Source of the DNA: Pedobacter arcticus A12
Lineage (GTDB): Bacteria; Bacteroidota; Bacteroidia; Sphingobacteriales; Sphingobacteriaceae
Length of the DNA: 64,000 nucleotides
Direction: 5' to 3'
Assembly: GCF_000302595.1 (NCBI RefSeq)
Contig: NZ_JH947126.1
Location: 1-64,000, forward strand
The notes below the pieces were generated by a model, which made no database searches, was not told the DNA's origin, and worked only from the letters and a program-made list of their open reading frames with translations. Every line of letters begins with the position of its first letter. Position 1 is the first letter of the stretch. Below, piece by piece: positions 4,839 to 5,556 of this stretch. The position numbers and the translations under genes were made by a program.

Positions 4839-4871
4839 TTTGTTTAAACAACTAAAATGTTTCTATATTTG
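4839..4871 (+). promoter_or_regulatory. Complete Bacteroidota promoter for a small RNA candidate
   Basis: TTTG at 4839-4842 and TATATTTG at 4864-4871 are separated by 21 bases, which fits the -33/-7 consensus of this phylum. The predicted start is near 4876. Confidence 0.65.
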
Positions 4872-4875
4872 TAAT

Positions 4876-4944
4876 GCCCTCCCAAAGGGCATGTTTTTCA
4901 TAGGTAGATGTAGGGTCGAATATTTATATTCGGCCCTTTTTTGT
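4876..4944 (+). ncRNA. Candidate small RNA of about 68 nt, or an attenuated ubiX leader
   Basis: A perfect promoter ends at 4871. It is followed at once by a hairpin (ATGCCCT 4874-4880 with AGGGCAT 4886-4892), about 18 unpaired bases, and an intrinsic terminator whose GGGTCGAATAT arm pairs with ATATTCGGCCC and is followed by a T run near 4938-4944. No open frame of significance lies inside. The unit could be an independent small RNA, or a leader that ends transcription ahead of ubiX, whose start codon is at 4981. I do not recognise an Rfam family. Confidence 0.55.
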
Positions 4945-4980: not shown

Positions 4981-5556
4981 ATGGAAAAGAAGAAATTAGT
5001 AGTAGCAATTACTGGCGCAAGTGGTTCAATTTACGCTAAATTGTTATTGCAGAAATTGAGAAGTCTAGAAAATCAGGTAGCTGAGGTAGGTGTAGTGATG
5101 TCCGATAATGCAAAAGACGTATGGCGTTTTGAGCTTGGCGATGAATCTTTTAAAGATTTTCCATTTCATTTTTACGATAAAAATGACTTTATGGCTCCAT
5201 TTGCTTCTGGCTCTGCAAAATATGACACCATGTTGATTATACCTTGTTCTATGGGAACTTTAGGGAGAATTGCTAACGGTATTTCTAACGATTTAACGAC
5301 CAGAACAGCAGATGTGATATTGAAAGAAAGGCGTAAATTGATTTTAGTAGCTAGAGATACGCCTTTGAGCCTAATCCACATTAACAATATGAAAACAGTA
5401 ACAGAAGCCGGGGGAATTATCTGTCCGGCTGTTCCATCTTTTTACAGCAGGCCAAAAACCATCGAAGAAGTGGCAGCGACCGTTGTAGATAGAGTACTGG
5501 ATTTAGCGGGATTTGTGACCAATAGCTATCAGTGGGGTAAAAGTGAAGCACTTTAG
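4981..5556 (+). CDS. ubiX: UbiX family flavin prenyltransferase
   Basis: The 191-residue flavoprotein makes prenylated FMN, the cofactor of UbiD-type decarboxylases, from FMN and dimethylallyl phosphate. The N-terminal VAITGASGSIYAKLLL is the Rossmann-like FMN-binding start, IIPCSMGTLGRIANGISNDL is the central motif, and KLILVARDTPLSLIHINNM followed by GGIICPAVPSFYSRP is the conserved C-terminal part. The frame runs back to TTG at 4974, but ATG 4981 gives the normal N-terminus. No UbiD partner is in the window. A small RNA or leader candidate lies directly upstream. Confidence 0.95.
   Translation: MEKKKLVVAITGASGSIYAKLLLQKLRSLENQVAEVGVVMSDNAKDVWRFELGDESFKDFPFHFYDKNDFMAPFASGSAKYDTMLIIPCSMGTLGRIANGISNDLTTRTADVILKERRKLILVARDTPLSLIHINNMKTVTEAGGIICPAVPSFYSRPKTIEEVAATVVDRVLDLAGFVTNSYQWGKSEAL

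Follow-up and report, generated by a model that had tools for sequence, protein, structure and literature searches.

A predicted small RNA gene upstream of ubiX

The window, a stretch of 64,000 nt from a Pedobacter arcticus A12 contig (NZ_JH947126.1), carries on its forward strand a compact unit of promoter, hairpin, and terminator that ends shortly before ubiX. Its parts and the neighboring gene are as follows:

4839-4842, + strand: −33 promoter element TTTG, read in the sequence, 21 nt ahead of the −7 box
4864-4871, + strand: −7 promoter element TATATTTG, read in the sequence, matching the Bacteroidota-type TAnnTTTG
4874-4892, + strand: hairpin 1, ATGCCCT-CCCAA-AGGGCAT, from the fold and compensatory changes
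4876-4943, + strand: predicted small RNA (about 68 nt), its ends deduced from the −7 box and terminator
4893-4915, + strand: near-invariant core GTTTTTCATAGGTAGATGTAGGG, from 77 aligned sequences
4893-4911, + strand: single-stranded seed; the last 4 nt of the core enter the terminator stem
4912-4943, + strand: intrinsic terminator AGGGTCGAATA-TTTA-TATTCGGCCCT (hairpin 4912-4937, then six T at 4938-4943), from a terminator scan and the fold
4981-5556, + strand: ubiX, the downstream neighbor and not part of the RNA (Pfam Flavoprotein, 2.2e-43)

The original prediction proposed that a correctly spaced −33/−7 promoter, a hairpin, and a terminator make up a complete small RNA unit here, and the unit is indeed present: TTTG and TATATTTG are separated by 21 nt, and the spacing of the −7 box is fixed among relatives. 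As the predicted start lies at about 4876, hairpin 1 would be at the extreme 5′ end and the RNA would be about 68 nt long. The 75 nt segment folds at −25.7 kcal/mol, compared with −14.0 kcal/mol for shuffled sequences (z −4.2), and none of 200 shuffles was as good. Both hairpins were picked up by a terminator scan of the region, which on its own performs at chance level there (four sites versus 3.3 expected). That scan was insufficient by itself, and we judge the unit to be real because the whole arrangement of promoter, hairpin, core, and terminator is conserved.

Within the genus the unit is found upstream of ubiX with 89-97% DNA identity by BLAST, and the UbiX protein is 72-85% identical. 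A strong match to the sRNA was present in 16 of 18 genus genomes; the remaining two also lack a ubiX match. The original prediction suggested searching related genomes for both hairpins and their distance to ubiX, and all of these are kept among relatives. A covariance model built from 13 sequences matched the window at 4872-4942 with 102.6 bits, and it found matches in 234 of 251 Sphingobacteriaceae genomes and 20 of 25 genera, including Pedobacter, Mucilaginibacter, Sphingobacterium, Olivibacter, Arcticibacter, Daejeonella, and others. Genomes of the family have 1-11 copies, and P. arcticus has two. Because an order-level search returned only Sphingobacteriaceae, we took the breadth of the distribution from a class-level search, in which all 13 sampled family members had matches, compared with 4 of 283 other genomes, all four of them weak.

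The core, GUUUUUCAUAGGUAGAURUAGRG (23 nt), is near-invariant in the 77 aligned sequences, and the flanking hairpins vary in sequence with their pairing preserved. Compensatory changes affect four of the seven pairs of hairpin 1 (for example, GC to AU in 13 sequences) and seven of the 11 pairs of the terminator, in which 98.7% of cells pair. Over both hairpins, 11 of 18 pairs are changed on both sides, a number that none of 500 shuffles reached; 95.5% of cells pair on 57 distinct rows. The alignment had been fitted to the model, which favors covariation, but structures slid along the same alignment nonetheless scored only 1-4. A small ORF inside the sRNA was considered and rejected: the ATG just before the core is missing in several copies, and the hairpin lengths vary out of frame. 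The copies share no conserved reading frame, in line with the original view that no protein is encoded.

At gathering score, Rfam 15 gave no matches in the window, and the matches obtained at E values up to 10 (mmgR, sbrA, FopS, and GibS) were dismissed as sub-threshold and shape-driven. A search for carriage of the sRNA on phages or plasmids, as noted for FopS, gave no match, and we found no published description of this sRNA in the literature searched. No Rfam 15 family fits, the FopS threshold is not reached, and the RNA appears to represent a new sRNA family. The fixed promoter spacing, the covarying hairpins, the near-invariant core, and the paralogs away from ubiX together indicate that the locus is almost certainly an sRNA gene of about 68 nt, much as originally proposed.

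Two promoter classes and the relation to ubiX

Of 83 named copies, 58 have a housekeeping promoter and 22 have a sigma-54-like promoter. In the first class, TAnnTTTG lies 29-33 nt ahead of the core (58/83 copies, compared with 2% of shuffles), and 30 of the 58 have a TTG at 15-26 nt before the −7 box. The second class is defined by GGYAN6TTG, which has the spacing of the sigma-54 −24/−12 elements and stands at a fixed distance before the core (22/83 copies, compared with 0.4% of shuffles); a terminator loop containing GCGAGAG is common to 19 of these 22. The sigma-54-like copies, which occur in Mucilaginibacter and relatives, would turn on the same seed under other conditions. Three such copies stand in tandem in Mucilaginibacter pedocola (L187:3521-4260), with a tRNA gene about 660 nt upstream, and a tRNA gene is also near sRNA copies in L150 and L192. 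The second copy in P. arcticus (L002; C3:940048-940116, − strand) is on another contig, and its −7 box, TATATTGC, corresponds to the alternative TAnnTTGY (SM5) motif, which was described for Flavobacterium psychrophilum (PMC9723704).

The original prediction also raised the possibility that the unit attenuates ubiX, in which case it would be a cis-acting leader whose terminator sets read-through into that gene. Deep synteny favors such a role, in that ubiX is directly downstream of 47 of the 58 housekeeping-promoter copies, usually 40-93 nt past the core, and neither of the two genus genomes that lacked an sRNA match gave one for ubiX. An attenuator or riboswitch, however, is expected only before the gene that it controls, without a downstream promoter belonging to that gene, and the unit departs from this pattern. 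None of the 22 sigma-54-like copies precedes ubiX, and the P. arcticus paralog likewise keeps the core away from it. An additional TAnnTTTG lies between the terminator and ubiX in 30 of the 47 linked loci (6% in shuffles), and because of this, ubiX probably has its own promoter; the corresponding gap in the window contains only a version of the −7 box with one mismatch, TTATTTTG. The fold shows no alternative anti-terminator pairing, and attenuation does not require an unpaired, near-invariant stretch of 19 nt. A role of the unit as a leader or attenuator of ubiX is thus very improbable, and this part of the original prediction is not supported; some influence on ubiX through read-through may still occur. 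The promoter classes, the unlinked copies, and the post-terminator −7 boxes therefore identify the sRNA as an independent gene and ubiX as its stable neighbor.

Antisense sites at start codons and in 3′ UTRs

The RNA has the general properties of a trans-acting sRNA, namely, an independent promoter and terminator, no coding capacity, and a conserved unpaired seed. It is predicted to consist of a short 5′ hairpin, the single-stranded seed GUUUUUCAUAGGUAGAUGU, and the hairpin of the terminator. The sequence to which the core is antisense, CATCTACCTATGAAAAAC, is a start-codon region; the reverse complement of the core, CCCTACATCTACCTATGAAAAAC, can be read as a leader followed by a start codon and the codons for Lys-Asn. 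The seed is antisense to translation starts of the form ACAUCUACCU-AUG-AAA-AAC.

Target statistics were obtained from pattern searches and sampled stretches. The pattern CATCTACCTATGAAAAAD, which leaves out the usual form of the sRNA itself, had 30 matches in the 251 family genomes, compared with none for the reversed pattern and about 0.5 expected from a Markov model. Ten or 11 of the 30 are divergent sRNA paralogs, and nine of the approximately 19 that are left begin ORFs of at least 150 aa. The sites cover the start codon of a GH76 lipoprotein gene in four genomes and the starts of ORFs for an outer-membrane beta-barrel protein, a glucose/sorbosone dehydrogenase-like lipoprotein, an ECF sigma factor, a histidine-specific methyltransferase, and a secreted protein without family assignment. 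A second pattern, ACATCTACCTATGANB, had 21 matches, compared with four for its reverse and 2.8 expected (Markov); about five are paralogs and five lie inside one conserved protein motif, and among the matches are another ECF sigma homologue and a 51-54 aa protein in three copies. Start-codon sites recur in homologues of the GH76 lipoprotein (four genomes), the ECF sigma factor (two), the 51-54 aa protein (three), and a 45-46 aa protein (two). In the GH76 leaders CATCTACCTATGAAAAA is kept and the adjacent intergenic bases differ. Predicted sRNA-target duplexes range from −24 to −29.5 kcal/mol, with shuffled means near −11 kcal/mol.

The position of the CATCTACCTATGAAAAAD matches at start codons is not significant alone, because 27-35% of ATGAAAAA[AGT] occurrences are gene starts in any case. 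What counts for targeting is how many exact sites there are and that they recur in homologous genes. The excess of sites is clear family-wide; within the genus, non-self 12-mer sites are at control level (10 versus 10). A sample of 379 starts from two genomes showed no excess of general start-codon complementarity. SusC-like TonB receptors were considered as main targets and set aside, as their 30 start regions in P. arcticus had no clear excess of complementarity. The only start-codon candidate in this genome, the gene for a thioredoxin-like secreted protein (L289), has a predicted duplex of −19.3 kcal/mol, about equal to the best of 200 shuffles.

Some of the putative target mRNAs have a further antisense site, located in the 3′ UTR directly ahead of the terminator. 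The GH76 genes in L243 and L244 have an additional site past the stop codon, near the terminator, and the gene for the 45-46 aa protein, which ends in A-A (L338 and L250, the latter on the − strand), has one site at its start codon and another in the 3′ UTR, ahead of the terminator. Small conserved ORFs in L234 and L237, a group with C termini such as KQAA, are also followed by 3′ UTR antisense sites before a terminator. The best two sites in P. arcticus are in 3′ UTRs, those of an outer-membrane protein gene (L264, position 1500) and of what is presumably a DUF892-like gene (L286, − strand, position 1500). These sites of 14-17 nt form TTTCAT-CTACCT-ATGAAA hairpins that are complementary to the core and lie just before the terminators.

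Four further loci (L241, L249, L252, and L260, at about locus position 1500) match the complement of the core exactly, and a conserved hairpin stretch, GAATTCTCAG..TGAG, comes next. The two with enough sequence aligned (L252 and L260) have a common tail ending in a terminator, and the other two have a clear sigma-54-like promoter. We note as a lead that all four could be sponge RNAs.

These loci and the two 3′ UTR sites in P. arcticus could mean that the main controllers or pairing partners of the sRNA are sponge-like RNAs and that it reaches its mRNA targets through shorter pairing that our searches did not recognize. We consider this unlikely: the same 12-mer search did not find the two 3′ UTR sites in congeners, and start-codon sites recur in homologous genes elsewhere. 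Still less likely is that the core serves mainly as a protein-binding site, as in a 6S-like or CsrB-like RNA that titrates a regulator or chaperone. In favor of that reading, many base-pairing seeds are shorter and less invariant than this core, the paralogs have it in common, and in the FopS sRNAs of Bacteroides the seed region is itself bound by the protein RbpB (PMC11697453). A pure protein site does not, however, predict the large family excess of exact antisense matches at start codons and in 3′ UTRs of unrelated genes, and a search for an RbpB-type RRM_1 protein (PF00076) had no match in the P. arcticus genome, with Bacteroides ihuae positive as a control. Antisense pairing at start codons is the reading that we favor, and it is probably the mechanism: the sRNA would act in trans, pairing over the start codon of an mRNA and thereby blocking initiation. 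Taken as a whole, the locus is quite likely to encode a stand-alone, multicopy, trans-acting antisense sRNA and would be the ubiX-linked, housekeeping-promoter copy of a Sphingobacteriaceae family.

Comparison with other sRNAs and significance

In Bacteroides, base pairing of FopS sRNAs close to the SusC start codon represses translation of the mRNA, an effect that RbpB opposes (PMC11697453). Like the present RNA, FopS (RF04319) is multicopy and about 65-70 nt long, with housekeeping promoters, a terminator, and a single-stranded seed, GUUUUUCAU-G...UAGAU.UAaGG; the cmscan alignment shows the similarity between the seeds, UGUUUUUCAU.G..UAGAU.UA.GGU. The FopS seed is antisense to start-codon regions, as is predicted for the present RNA from the family-wide excess of sites. 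The present RNA nevertheless scores 17.1 bits against a gathering score of 56 for FopS, and 16 member loci had no FopS match. Its 5′ hairpin is conserved and covarying, whereas FopS begins with a single-stranded seed stretch and has one terminator hairpin after it. The seed sequences diverge after GUUUUUCAU, SusC mRNAs are not evident targets in P. arcticus, and its genome gave no match for an RbpB-type RRM_1 protein. GibS (RF04182, also from Bacteroides) has an R1-type seed in common with FopS and a non-housekeeping promoter, and it pairs at the translation start of a glycoside hydrolase family 13 mRNA, which it represses. Its model, however, has 142 positions and two seeds, and the present RNA reaches 15-20 bits against its gathering score of 115. 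The best reading is that the sRNA would work like FopS and GibS, and we do not class it as FopS. The shared UUUUUCAU could reflect either common descent or convergence on ATGAAAAA starts.

Outside Bacteroides, the Qrr sRNAs of Vibrio may offer a parallel: they have several copies with a near-identical core, sigma-54 promoters for some copies, and targets in start regions. Qrr sRNAs belong to another phylum, have another fold, and depend on Hfq. Rfp18 of Flavobacterium is a conserved trans-acting Bacteroidota sRNA with predicted targets among secreted hydrolases (PMC9723704); compared by description, it differs in pairing through its third stem-loop.

Among the four outside genomes with weak matches, G329, from another family, clearly shows the same architecture; one of its copies has the core CATAGGTAGATGGGG, and a second has a close variant of it. 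The same layout, with lineage-specific cores after UUUUCAUAG, occurs in G329 (L363 and L370), G349 (L365), and G355 (L364), all outside the Sphingobacteriaceae. These distant relatives suggest a wider superfamily. A more far-reaching proposal, which we make tentatively and with considerable doubt, is that there is a class-wide Bacteroidia superfamily of anti-start-codon sRNAs, all combining UUUUCAU with a lineage-specific seed (FopS and GibS in Bacteroides, the present family, and relatives in at least two other families), and that the Sphingobacteriaceae seed, expressed under two promoter classes and without an RRM protein, acts on mRNAs that have one site at the start codon and its partner ahead of the terminator, with dedicated sponge RNAs counteracting it.

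What is known of sRNA regulation in Bacteroidota comes from a handful of gut and fish species. The sRNA described here belongs to a large family of soil and water bacteria, nearly all of whose sampled genomes have it; it is absent from Rfam, has a near-invariant seed, and comes with concrete predicted targets: a GH76 glycosidase, an ECF sigma factor, and small proteins. Two questions thereby become testable, namely, whether start-codon antisense control of glycan genes is older than the Bacteroides split, and whether such control is possible without the RRM protein RbpB.
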